Source: Ruania rhizosphaerae (lineage in GTDB: Bacteria > Actinomycetota > Actinomycetes > Actinomycetales > Beutenbergiaceae). Taken from it: a stretch of 64,000 bases of DNA. The stretch covers positions 372,001 to 436,000 of the forward strand of contig NZ_VSMB01000001.1 in the NCBI RefSeq assembly GCF_009805705.1. The letters run 5' to 3'. Shown here piece after piece: positions 39,897 to 55,278 of this stretch (its first letter is position 1; the number at the start of each line of letters is the position of its first letter). The notes under the pieces were generated by a model that did no database searches, was not told where the DNA came from, and saw nothing but the letters and a program-made list of their open reading frames with translations. Made by a program: the position numbers and the translations under genes.

Positions 39897-39911
39897 TGGA
39901 TCCATGATCCC
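39897..39911. promoter_or_regulatory. GntR-family operator, site 1 (TGGAT-N5-ATCCA)
   Basis: TGGATCCATGATCCC has TGGAT-N5-ATCCC and overlaps the ATG (39904) of the GntR gene itself, so it should give autorepression. Four more sites precede other genes of the cluster. Confidence 0.7.
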
Positions 39912-40605
39912 AAATGCAGGCTCGACGAGCGCCGATCTCCACGAGCTCGCCCAGCGCCATCACACGGCCTACCGCTCGGTGGGCGCCATGGTCTACGGGC
40001 TGCTGCAGGAGGCGATCCTCAGCGGCACGCTCCGACCCGGGCAGAAATTGCGGCAGGAGACGCTCGCCGAGCAGATCGGAGTCTCCCGGCTGCCTGTGCG
40101 TTCGGCGCTGATCCAGCTCGAGTCTGACGGCTTGGTCGAGTTCCATGATCGACGCGGTGCGACCGTGCGTTCCATCTCGCCGGATCAGGCCCGAGAGGTG
40201 TACCGCATCCGCGCACTGCTCGAGGTGGACGCGCTGAAGCAGTCGATGAAGCGCTCTTCGCCCGAGCGGGTCAAGCGACTGCGCGAGCTGGCCAAGGCGG
40301 CCGACGGTCAGCACGAGGGCCCCGAGTTCGTGGAGGCTCGCACCCAGTTCTACGCCGAGCTCTACGACGCCGAGCACAACCCGATCACCTGGGAGATGAT
40401 CGAGCAGCTGCGCCTGAAGATGGGCCGCTATGTACTCGGGTGGCGGGTAGTGGGTGGTTCGCACACTCACTCGCACGAAGATCTCGTGGACGCGTTCGCC
40501 TCGGGTGACGCCACGAAGGCGAGCGCGCTGTTGCGCAAGCACCTCGCCGAGGTGCTCAAAGGCGTTCTGAGCTGGCTCGACGCCGAGGCCACCGGCACAG
40601 ACTGA
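39904..40605 (+). CDS. GntR/FCD family transcriptional regulator
   Basis: The 233-aa protein has a GntR winged helix ([34 protein letters not shown] in residues 43-76). An FCD-type helical ligand domain follows with the metal-type [12 protein letters not shown]is near residue 197 and a C-terminal KHLAEVLKG helix. FCD proteins sense carboxylic acids. The start codon is covered by a TGGAT-N5-ATCC operator, and the regulon sites before 40733, 41858, 50331 and 50510 suggest that it governs the whole catabolic cluster downstream. A leaderless start at 39904 is likely. Confidence 0.9.
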
Positions 40606-40665
40606 TCCTCGGGCCGATCTCTGCTCGGCCAGCGTACGCTACTCGCACTCAGTTTTCTTGAATTC

Positions 40666-40680
40666 TGGATCCAGAATCCA
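40666..40680. promoter_or_regulatory. GntR-family operator, site 2
   Basis: TGGATCCAGAATCCA is a perfect TGGAT-N5-ATCCA site, 52 bp upstream of the F420-dependent dehydrogenase start. Confidence 0.8.
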
Positions 40681-53242: not shown

Positions 53243-54095
53243 CATCGTGGCGATCGACGTGCACACCCACCCGCAGACCGAGGAGTTCCTCGCGGCCATG
53301 GGCTCACGGCACCGGCAGATGGCGAAGCATTTCGGACGGGAGCGACCGGTGGTCTCCTTCGCCGAGCAGGCCGACCAGTACCGCGAGCGCCGAATGATGG
53401 CCGTGATCGTGAACTCGGACTCGGAGACGACGTCGGGGATCCGCGGCGCCCCGAACGATCTGCTCGGCAAGGCGCAACGCGATCACCCGGATGTGTTCCT
53501 CTCCTTCGCGGGTATCGACCCGTGGAAGGGTGAGGCGGCCGTGGCGGAGATCCGCCGGATGCATGCCGAGTACGGGATCAAAGGGGTGGGTGAGCTGAAC
53601 CCGTCCCGGCAGAAGTTCGCCCCGAACGATCGGCGGTTCTTCCCGATCTGGGAGGTCTGTGCCGAGCTGGGCCTGGTGGTGATGTTCCACTCCGGGTTCC
53701 CGGGGGCCGGTGCCGGGACGCCGGGGGGTGGCGGGTACCGGCTGGAGCTGGCTCGTCCGGTGCCGTACGTGGACGATGTGGCGGCGGAGTTCCCGGAGCT
53801 GAAGATCATCAGTGCGCACCCGGCGTGGCCGTGGCACCTGGAGAACCTGGCGATGGTGTGGCACAAGTCGAACGTGTACCTGGACCTGTCCGGCTGGGCG
53901 CCCAAGTACCTGCCGCCGGAGGTGATCCGGTATGCCGACTCCCTCATCACCGACCGGGTGCTGTTCGGATCGGACTGGCCGGTGCTGACGGTGGACCGGT
54001 GGATGGCGGAGTTCGGCGAGCTGGGCATGAAGGAGACCTCTCGCCGCAAGATCCTGCTGGAGAACGCCCGCACCCTGTTCGGGCTGGAGGACTGA
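53235..54095 (+). CDS. Amidohydrolase-2 family (decarboxylase/hydrolase)
   Basis: The 286-aa protein belongs to the amidohydrolase-2/ACMSD-like group. It has HTHP at the N-terminus (H10, H12), FHSG near residue 154, SAHPAWPW near 193 and the Asp in LFGSDWP. Members decarboxylate aromatic acids or hydrate/hydrolyse products such as pyrone dicarboxylate. It overlaps the LigB-type gene by 1 nt. The chemistry is not fixed by sequence. Confidence 0.88.
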   Translation: MRDIVAIDVHTHPQTEEFLAAMGSRHRQMAKHFGRERPVVSFAEQADQYRERRMMAVIVNSDSETTSGIRGAPNDLLGKAQRDHPDVFLSFAGIDPWKGEAAVAEIRRMHAEYGIKGVGELNPSRQKFAPNDRRFFPIWEVCAELGLVVMFHSGFPGAGAGTPGGGGYRLELARPVPYVDDVAAEFPELKIISAHPAWPWHLENLAMVWHKSNVYLDLSGWAPKYLPPEVIRYADSLITDRVLFGSDWPVLTVDRWMAEFGELGMKETSRRKILLENARTLFGLED

Positions 54096-54934
54096 TGGCC
54101 CGGCTGGTGATGGCGGCGGCGACGCCGCACAACCCGCTGCTGTGGCGGGCGATGACCGAGCCGGCACCGGACGATCTCGCTGGGGTCGCTGCAAACTTCG
54201 CGCTGATCCGCAGGGCGATCACCGAACTGGGTGTGGACGTGATCGTGCTGATCGGCACCGACCACATCCGCCAGTTCTTCCTGGAGAACGTGCCCGCGTT
54301 CATCGTCGGCAAGGCCGAGCACTATCACGGCACCTACGAGAACGAGGTGCGCACCTTCGGGCTCGAGTACGGCGAGGTGACCGGCCACCGGGAGCTGGCG
54401 GACGAGATCACCGGGCGGGAGGTGCTCACGGAGGCGATCGACTTCGGGATCTCGCACGAGTGGCGCCTGGACCACGGGTTCATGATCCCGCTGCAGTACC
54501 TGACGCCGGAGCTGGACATCCCGGTGGTGCCGATCCATGTGAACGCCACGCTGCCGCCGTTGCCGAGCCCGCGCCGGTTCGCGGTGCTGGGCGAGCACCT
54601 GCGGTCCACGATCGAGAACTGGGAGAGCGACGCCCGGGTGGCAATCCTCACCTCAGGGCACATGGCCACCGACATCGGCGGCCCGAAGCAGTTCCACGGC
54701 TCCCCGGACCCGGACTTCGACGCCGAGGCCGTCGCCTGGATGCGGGACGGGGACCTGGAGGCCGCGATCGACGGCTGCCGATACGAGCGGTTGATGGACG
54801 CCGGCAACGTGACCTACCAGTACGTGAATGTGATCGCCGCACTGGCGGCGATGCAGGGGCGCGGAGCGGACCTGGCCGAGGCGACACCGAGCCGCTTCGC
54901 CTCCAGCCCGTTCTTCCTATGGAGGGCGCGATGA
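54095..54934 (+). CDS. LigB-like extradiol dioxygenase-fold protein, variant metal site
   Basis: The 279-aa protein has the class-III (LigB) fold: ATPHNPLL with His12 and VLIGTDHIRQFF with His57. The third ligand of LigB-type enzymes, a Glu near 242, is Gln242 here (AGNVTYQYVNVIAA). SGHMATDIG carries the likely catalytic His. The E-to-Q change could weaken iron binding, so ring cleavage is not certain. It is coupled to the small LigA-like gene that follows. Confidence 0.82.
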   Translation: MARLVMAAATPHNPLLWRAMTEPAPDDLAGVAANFALIRRAITELGVDVIVLIGTDHIRQFFLENVPAFIVGKAEHYHGTYENEVRTFGLEYGEVTGHRELADEITGREVLTEAIDFGISHEWRLDHGFMIPLQYLTPELDIPVVPIHVNATLPPLPSPRRFAVLGEHLRSTIENWESDARVAILTSGHMATDIGGPKQFHGSPDPDFDAEAVAWMRDGDLEAAIDGCRYERLMDAGNVTYQYVNVIAALAAMQGRGADLAEATPSRFASSPFFLWRAR

Positions 54935-55278
54935 GCAAGTACATGATCGACAAGTTCATGCGTGCGGTGGAGATGAGCGATGCGGCCGTGGCCGCGTACG
55001 TGGCCGATCCGGGCGCGTTCCTGGATGAGTGGCTGACGGAGGACGCGGCCACAGATCGACCTGCCGACGATAGGCGGCTCACCCAGGCGGAGCATGCGGC
55101 CTTCGCCGCCCGCGACTACGAGGCGCTGTATCTGCTCGGCGCACACCCATACCTGCTCTGGCACTTCACCGAGGCCGTGTATTCGCCCGAGTTCGGTGAG
55201 AGTTTCGGGTGGCGGGACCTGGTGGAGCGGTACCGGGAGGCGGTGCGACCGCACGGGGTGCCGGACTACGTGCCTTGA
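54931..55278 (+). CDS. LigA-like small subunit
   Basis: The 115-aa protein resembles the alpha (LigA) subunit of protocatechuate 4,5-dioxygenase: MIDKFMRAVEMSDA, LTQAEHAAFAARDYEALYLLGAHPYLLW and a short helix. It overlaps the LigB-type gene by ATGA. It should form an alpha2beta2-type complex with that protein. The operon ends here, next to a decayed toxin-antitoxin locus. Confidence 0.82.
   Translation: MSKYMIDKFMRAVEMSDAAVAAYVADPGAFLDEWLTEDAATDRPADDRRLTQAEHAAFAARDYEALYLLGAHPYLLWHFTEAVYSPEFGESFGWRDLVERYREAVRPHGVPDYVP

Follow-up and report, generated by a model that had tools for sequence, protein, structure and literature searches.

A conserved actinobacterial gene cluster with a predicted role in F420-linked opening of an N-heterocyclic ring

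Closest described systems

According to PMC8498797, F420-dependent catabolism has been documented for few compounds, mainly nitroaromatics, and the npd-type catabolism of picrate and 2,4-dinitrophenol in Rhodococcus, Nocardia, and Nocardioides is begun by F420H2-dependent reductases of the luciferase-like monooxygenase (LLM) family. Here, we describe a gene cluster from Ruania rhizosphaerae (contig NZ_VSMB01000001.1), located at positions 39904 to 55278 of a 64,000-nucleotide stretch of DNA, which is referred to as the window. It likewise contains LLM enzymes: an F420-dependent glucose-6-phosphate dehydrogenase (FGD) and a second LLM protein (LLM2) are encoded together with an alpha/beta hydrolase (ABH), a cyclic amidohydrolase, a NitT/TauT-type ABC importer, and enzymes of a putative lower pathway. 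The genome around the window comprises 4.43 Mb on 43 contigs and is 100% complete. We interpret the cluster, with a probability of roughly 0.55, as a regulon induced for the catabolism of an N-heterocyclic compound; the ring would be a lactam or turn into one, and it may bear a carboxylate.

In the npd picrate cluster, the gene for an F420:NADPH oxidoreductase (npdG) accompanies those for two hydride transferases. No match to such an oxidoreductase was found among the 20 window proteins to which the scan was confined. FGD is present instead, and the cyclic amidohydrolase, the importer, and the coenzyme A (CoA) steps are additional to npd. The anaerobic nicotinate pathway of Eubacterium barkeri uses a molybdenum hydroxylase, a 6-hydroxynicotinate reductase with ferredoxin as reductant, and an enamidase; it resembles the route proposed below in outline (hydroxylation next to N, reduction of the ring, and opening by a member of the amidohydrolase superfamily). 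In the Rut pyrimidine pathway, an LLM enzyme, an alpha/beta hydrolase, RidA, and isochorismatase-type proteins act together, as they occur together in some of the loci described below; however, the RidA and isochorismatase-type proteins found here score far below the Rut cut-offs, and Rut has no known counterpart of the cyclic amidohydrolase or of FGD.

With dihydroorotase, allantoinase, and L-hydantoinase, the amidohydrolase shares its fold family and metal positions, and R64 and N94 are as in dihydroorotase. It differs by an invariant NHW motif of its own, and of its 60 NCBIfam matches the best 25, nearly all of them models of dihydroorotase, allantoinase, or hydantoinase, have cut-offs that it does not reach. 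Plasmid clusters with genes for LigB, CaiB, and citryl-CoA lyase in Aminobacter, Sinorhizobium, Martelella, and Rhodococcus encode LigB proteins with 33 to 38% identity to that of the cluster. All four have a small-protein gene directly behind ligB and a CoA transferase gene nearby, and three have an amidohydrolase gene. They differ by the citryl-CoA lyase (four of four), and in these stretches neither FGD nor the trio of ABH, amidohydrolase, and LLM2 is annotated. Among the titles listed by an open-access literature search, none dealt with this operon, in line with a first-pass annotation of the window that had called the combination undescribed. The cluster is a real, conserved, and probably coregulated catabolic unit not found described in the literature searched.

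Conservation and presumed regulation of the cluster

Profile scans of the window proteins placed a regulator, enzymes, the importer, and a run of genes from a zinc-type dehydrogenase of the medium-chain family (MDR) to LigA within the span. The gene order GntR-FGD-ABH-cyclic amidohydrolase-LLM2-ABC importer-binding protein-MDR-(OsmC)-CoA transferase-amidohydrolase-2-LigB-LigA was kept in a congener (G105) and in five Agromyces genomes, apart from inserted genes and OsmC, which is present in G105, G352, and G193 and was not found in G054, G370, and G308. At an E value of 1e-100, the amidohydrolase was detected in 8 of 396 genomes of the order, namely, the source genome, G105 (97% identity), the five Agromyces genomes (83 to 85%), and one Microbacterium genome (G097; 80%), which carries the part of the cluster that fits on its short contig.

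A profile search for the amidohydrolase across a set of 84,980 species returned 61 loci, examined over at most 10 kb per side. Their hosts include Agromyces, Microbacterium, Leifsonia, Mycolicibacterium, Actinotalea, Actinomadura, Nonomuraea, Amycolatopsis, Solirubrobacter, and others, with many metagenome-assembled genomes, two of which are labeled merely "bacterium." The trio was contiguous and on one strand in 58 of the 61 loci (exceptions, L105, L110, and L127). The CoA transferase, amidohydrolase-2, and LigB accompany it in at least 18 loci, a lower bound because of the limited span, and an FGD-like gene of at least 54% identity was found in 28. Further neighbors, whose families were verified on one representative each, were a molybdenum hydroxylase large subunit (14 loci), its FAD subunit, its 2Fe-2S subunit, and a CoxG-like protein (10 loci each), a TPP enzyme and RidA (12 each), a class II aldolase (7), an aspartase-like lyase (6), and an isochorismatase-type amidase (5). 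Judging from this synteny, the block of about fifteen genes is almost certainly one conserved unit, common wholly or partly to many soil actinobacteria. Carriage of the trio on plasmids was considered and rejected, as none of the amidohydrolase's six matches on plasmids exceeded 36% identity.

The genes are closely packed, with a gap of 3 bases between ABH and the amidohydrolase and overlaps of 1 base between the amidohydrolase and LLM2, 4 bases between the ABC genes, and 1 to 8 bases from MDR to LigA. Such tight spacing is as in operons. At the head of the cluster, also in G105 and the five Agromyces genomes, lies a gene for a GntR/FCD transcriptional regulator (39904 to 40605, plus strand, as are all cluster genes below unless stated; PF00392 and PF07729 above cut-off). 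A 14-base palindrome, TTCTGGATCCAGAA, precedes the transcription units of the cluster in the compared genomes. In the window, one operator-like site overlaps the GntR start (39894 to 39910; two mismatches), and a perfect one lies before FGD (40660 to 40679; no mismatch on either strand). A degenerate site before ABH (41815 to 41835) has three mismatches to a 17-base pattern and four to the 14-base core, and the divergent promoter region between the substrate-binding protein (SBP) and MDR (50390 to 50484) holds sites at 50390 to 50406, 50394 to 50410, and 50468 to 50484 with two or three mismatches. Allowing up to three mismatches, the palindrome was found before GntR in 7/7 genomes, before FGD or the Agromyces LLM gene preceding it in 7/7, in the SBP/MDR region in 6/7, and before ABH in 5/7. 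All five Agromyces genomes had an ABH site with at most one mismatch; counterparts with four mismatches were the ABH sites of the window and G105 and the SBP/MDR site of G352. A few matches were intragenic.

The 17-base pattern, chosen post hoc after the sites had been seen, gave 7 matches in the window compared to 0.84 expected, a number reached in none of 100 shuffles; the matches fall at only 5 places because palindromes match on both strands. In the whole source genome, 10 matches (up to three mismatches) were counted compared to 1 for a reversed control, and 4 of them, at three places, belong to the cluster. Together with the conserved gene order, these sites bear out the existence of the cluster proposed in the first-pass annotation. 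The GntR protein is the presumed controller of the unit, and we infer that it binds the palindrome.

Link to F420

The FGD gene (40733 to 41770; start most likely at 40733 rather than at the TTG at 40658) encodes a true F420-dependent glucose-6-phosphate dehydrogenase, as annotated before. It scored 645 bits against the TIGR03554 equivalog cut-off of 420, a margin of 225 bits, and aligned nearly end to end with the solved FGD1 of Mycobacterium tuberculosis (602 bits). The source genome has two true FGDs; the other one, at C1:114968, has counterparts above cut-off in 8/8 genomes of the genus. LLM2 (44203 to 45195), a putative F420H2-dependent reductase, matched PF00296 with 159.9 bits, and its best NCBIfam match was TIGR03619 with 153 bits (cut-off, 166.9). 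Since this score lies just below the cut-off, F420 use by LLM2 is deduced from context.

An F420 ligase (PF01996) was found in 50/50 tested genomes with the amidohydrolase, which represent 50 of the 61 loci (47 with a complete trio), and in 3 of 14 control genomes, all of them archaea. In 5/5 Agromyces genomes, the cluster is located between the genes for the F420 ligase and FbiA. No flavin reductase, as an FMNH2-dependent LLM enzyme would want, was present among the 15 unit genes scanned. On these grounds, a dependence of the pathway on F420H2 appears likely.

Proposed ring-opening and lower-pathway enzymes

The cyclic amidohydrolase (42800 to 44203) passed the Amidohydro_1 and Amidohydro_3 cut-offs. 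Its residues H60, H62, K144, H186, H245, and D317, which correspond to the metal positions of the superfamily (HxH, Lys, His, His, and Asp), were invariant in 61/61 aligned sequences. It fell short of the curated dihydroorotase cut-offs (best, 282 versus 452 bits; pyrC_multi, 258 versus 279 bits). Residues R64 and N94 (in HxHxR and MPN) and H271 were likewise invariant in 61/61 sequences. R64 and N94 match the same residues of Bacillus dihydroorotase; no such correspondence is seen in the alignments with allantoinase and L-hydantoinase. In dihydroorotase, these residues bind the carboxylate of the substrate; therefore, a carboxylated ring is suggested, an assignment that we regard as less likely than not. 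In addition, a distant cyclic amidohydrolase (27% identity) lies 9 kb from LigA in G352 (L064:20-2132), next to a frame that by eye resembles a carbon-nitrogen hydrolase, and G370 and G193 also have distant amidohydrolases close to the cluster.

The ABH (41858 to 42796; profile match) carries FG[T/S]GGTGGGN in place of GxSxG at the nucleophile elbow in 60/60 aligned sequences, and the "serine-less" hydrolase of the first-pass annotation is therefore real. Its structure model (mean pLDDT, 87.9) has an alpha/beta-hydrolase fold with a TM score of 0.86 to 7qjm. Besides this fold, structure comparison gave only the superfamily to which the binding protein belongs.

Downstream follows the run from MDR to LigA: MDR (50525 to 51505; PF08240), an OsmC-like protein (51498 to 52088; PF02566), a family III CoA transferase (CoA_transf_3; 52085 to 53242; PF02515, 352 bits), an amidohydrolase-2 family protein (Amidohydro_2; 53235 to 54095; PF04909, 168 bits; 86 to 90% identity in the five Agromyces genomes), a LigB-like protein (54095 to 54934; PF02900, 109 bits), and a LigA-like small protein (54931 to 55278), the partner of LigB in the homologous clusters. 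All pass their Pfam cut-offs except LigA (PF07746, 21.7 versus 25.3 bits). Class III extradiol dioxygenases use two His and one Glu as iron ligands. LigB retains H12 and H57, but Gln occupies the position of the iron-ligand Glu in 14/14 sequences, and the base His is displaced according to the alignment. Glu is found at this position in Escherichia coli MhpB and a Rhodococcus extradiol dioxygenase. Thus, extradiol ring cleavage is doubtful, and LigB was rejected as a proven ring-cleavage dioxygenase; of the LigB/LigA pair named in the first-pass annotation, the LigB family assignment holds, and that of LigA falls below the cut-off. The four plasmid relatives mentioned above have Gly at the Glu position. 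These Glu-less relatives (L152 to L155), annotated as extradiol dioxygenase or hypothetical protein, make up a broader group that is accompanied by genes for CoA transferase and citryl-CoA lyase. With the nucleophile-less hydrolase and the LigB without Glu, the cluster contains two atypical proteins.

Importer, substrate class, and proposed pathway

The importer consists of a NitT/TauT-type ATPase (45227 to 46051; PF00005 and taurine/nitrate-type NCBIfam matches), two permeases (46048 to 46881 and 46878 to 47714; PF00528 each), and an NMT1/THI5-type substrate-binding protein on the minus strand (49261 to 50331, with the start taken from homologs; PF09084, 72 bits for the longer frame 49261 to 50421), as had been proposed. 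For the model of the binding protein (pLDDT, 82.9), the closest of the listed folds by E value, at TM scores of 0.50 to 0.55, were those of Thi5, a formylaminopyrimidine-binding protein, a thiamin-bound protein, and a Bordetella protein whose ligand is unknown. This proximity to pyrimidine and thiamin binders would fit uptake of an N-heterocycle. Molybdenum hydroxylases typically introduce a hydroxyl group beside the N of an N-heteroaromatic ring, giving a lactam, which is the type of bond opened by this amidohydrolase family; the molybdenum hydroxylase genes near the trio in 14 loci therefore favor an N-heteroaromatic compound. Nothing in the cluster neighborhoods pointed to sulfonates or nitroaromatics. 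Because the hosts include Microbacterium maritypicum, riboflavin or lumichrome catabolism was also weighed; nothing seen in the loci spoke for it, with no test directed at it. Overall, an N-heterocycle is the favored substrate class, at somewhat better than even odds.

In the pathway that we propose, GntR would keep the unit repressed until it binds the substrate or a metabolite, and the NMT1-type importer would take up the N-heterocyclic compound. FGD would supply F420H2 by oxidation of glucose-6-phosphate, which LLM2 would use for the reduction of a double bond in the ring. Next, the reduced cyclic amide would be hydrolyzed by the metal-dependent amidohydrolase, and the nucleophile-less ABH would act on the product. 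Finally, MDR, the CoA transferase, amidohydrolase-2, and LigB/LigA might convey the open-chain product to central metabolism, with a CoA ester at some stage. To this particular order of enzymes we give slightly less than even odds. The theme suggested in the first-pass annotation (import, F420H2 reduction, opening of a cyclic amide, and CoA steps in one F420-linked catabolic unit) stands on the synteny, the operator-like sites, the contiguous trio, and the F420 ligase counts, with the reservation on F420 supply given next.

Several observations weigh against this interpretation. LLM2 does not reach the TIGR03619 cut-off, and there is no residue criterion here by which use of F420 could be told from use of FMN. 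The 50/50 count of the F420 ligase covers carriers of the amidohydrolase, and its weight depends on how common the ligase is in actinobacteria lacking FGD. The highest TM score of the binding protein among the listed folds, 0.64, was to a putative sulfonate-binding protein, and the molybdenum hydroxylase is not part of the window's version of the cluster. In addition, the source genome has no recognizable FO synthase (FbiC) or FbiA, and therefore a supply of F420 cannot simply be assumed.

The subthreshold LLM2 score also leaves room for a Rut-like oxidative route, in which LLM2 would act as an FMNH2-dependent monooxygenase and open the ring of a pyrimidine or pyridine with O2, FGD would serve something else, and the resulting ureido or formamide compound would be handled by the amidohydrolase, ABH, and RidA-type proteins. 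Such a route would fit the presence of RidA in 12 loci and, in 5, of an amidase with weak similarity to RutB and biuret hydrolase. However, RutA was not among the best 25 of 32 families for LLM2, the RidA and RutB-like proteins are far under the Rut cut-offs, FGD and F420 ligase accompany the trio, and no flavin reductase was present among the unit genes scanned; we consider this route unlikely. Just as unlikely appears aromatic catabolism proper, with LigA/LigB as a working extradiol dioxygenase and the trio preparing a dihydroxy-aromatic or N-substituted aromatic compound. The ligand replacements (Gln or Gly for Glu) and the displaced base His argue against a working dioxygenase, and many trio loci are without LigB, even though the LigB/LigA pair occurs with the CoA transferase and amidohydrolase-2 in 18 of the 61 loci counted for LigB and the plasmid relatives are annotated as extradiol dioxygenases. 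Finally, the cluster might degrade a deazaflavin (FO or F420) that LLM2 binds as its substrate. Deazaflavins contain a cyclic imide, and in Agromyces the neighbors of the cluster are F420 genes and a candidate F420/FO importer (see below). Yet a coregulated FGD makes most sense with F420 as a cofactor, many genomes with the candidate importer gave no match to the amidohydrolase, and the molybdenum hydroxylase contexts point elsewhere, which makes this explanation very improbable. Under the preferred interpretation as an N-heterocycle regulon, the core trio in dozens of actinobacterial species offers a testable route to a new F420H2-dependent ring reduction and opening.

F420 supply and a candidate importer

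The CofG and CofH models had no match in the source genome. Its sole CofD-family gene is YvcK, named from its neighbors and sequence, and the FbiA model TIGR01819 gave no match; the F420 ligase CofE is present at C1:124209. CofH exceeded its cut-off in 0/24 genomes of the family, three of which had matches of about 20 bits. Among 77 FGD-bearing genomes elsewhere in the order, CofH was over the cut-off in 17, scored 190 to 297 bits in 25, and gave only weak matches (19 to 36 bits) in 4 and none in 31; because of the matches in these genomes, the search does detect FbiC. In total, the tests leave 59 FbiC-less genomes, 24 in the family and 35 elsewhere in the order. FbiA was above cut-off in 52/72 genomes examined, including 6/24 of the family and 0/8 of this genus.

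Near CofE in FbiC-less genomes, we observed genes for a BtuFCD-type transporter, comprising a Peripla_BP_2 binding protein, a FecCD permease, and an ATPase (ABC_tran). This BtuF/FecB-type importer near the F420 ligase was seen in the source genome (G000:C1:124209-133213, L158; outside the window) and across loci L137 to L177. It was present in nine FbiC-less F420 loci (G021, G153, G238, G379, G280, G299, G266, G013, and G263) and not in four FbiC-bearing ones (G361, G167, G083, and G270), which have FbiC in its stead; the FbiC query matched L141 to L144 only among the F420 loci. The stretches of G303, G000, and G105 in this set did not contain the importer. In a second comparison, it adjoins CofE in 16 of 17 own-family genomes, including the source genome and G105, and the copy in G077 lies 3.7 kb past the compared stretch. 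In the source genome, its copy occupies C1:132263-133213, with some 8 kb separating it from CofE.

In a comparison of 80 genomes (G295, 89% complete, was omitted, and the 42 FbiC-positive genomes were represented by 22), an importer ortholog was found in 41/58 FbiC-less versus 2/22 FbiC-bearing genomes (G352 and G283). The identity limit of 48% was set post hoc, with the next lower matches at 41, 39, 37, and 36%. Resolved by family, FbiC-less genomes had the ortholog in 23/23 cases in the own family, 14/14 in f19 (a partial match in G249), 3/3 in f10, 1/1 in f9, and 0/17 in f17, i.e., in 41/41 outside f17. In f19, to which Agromyces and Microbacterium belong, the ratio was 14/14 for FbiC-less versus 1/8 for FbiC-bearing genomes. 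As the genomes are related, these counts are not independent events.

The occurrence of the importer mostly in FbiC-less genomes suggests salvage of F420 or FO. Against this stand the two genomes with both FbiC and the importer, which break strict exclusion, and the fact that known members of this importer type serve siderophores, heme, and cobalamin. The 17 f17 genomes (G314, G164, G150, G017, etc.), FGD bearing as well, also require another route: FbiA and the F420 ligase are present, FbiC and the importer were not found, and G246 and G108, of genus g26 like such genomes, have FbiC. They imply another supply of FO. We also considered the NitT/TauT importer of the cluster as a general F420/FO importer and rejected it, since the amidohydrolase is found in 8 of 396 genomes of the order compared to 59 FbiC-less genomes.

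We speculate that F420 auxotrophs, without FO synthase and in this genus also without FbiA, may run the N-heterocycle ring opening with F420 or FO imported through the BtuFCD-type transporter and finished or elongated by CofE, at odds that we place below even. To our knowledge, no F420 importer has been known before, and salvage, if true, would provide the first. None of the titles listed by the open-access literature search concerned F420 uptake. In the parts of PMC8498797 consulted, "uptake" and "salvag" do not occur, and a possible exporter of 3PG-F420 in P. rhizoxinica is mentioned; according to PMC12855090, mycobacteria are unable to scavenge deazaflavin from the host. If salvage occurs, soil actinobacteria would share F420 much like a vitamin. 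The missing F420 pathway of the host and the presence of the importer where FbiC is absent, in most families tested, make such sharing testable.

Gene calls and further genes at the locus

Gene calls were based on a GC3-minus-GC2 score and homology, with some starts uncertain, and some gene-order labels (MFS, Tct, and others) were assigned by eye. The first-pass annotation had treated the whole span as the cluster. Two genes within it were rejected as members: an ArsR-like gene (47862 to 48425, minus strand) and a dienelactone hydrolase family (DLH) gene (48493 to 49059, plus strand) have no counterpart in the compared clusters or in any of the 61 loci. Among the genomes compared, the two genes (47862 to 49059) lie inside the cluster solely in the source genome. 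Upstream of GntR, the plus-strand frame at 39070 to 39870 partially matched the alpha/beta-hydrolase profile PF00561 (positions 82 to 238, with the first third of the profile skipped). By eye, it resembles a shortened proline iminopeptidase, and a similar frame is present in G105.

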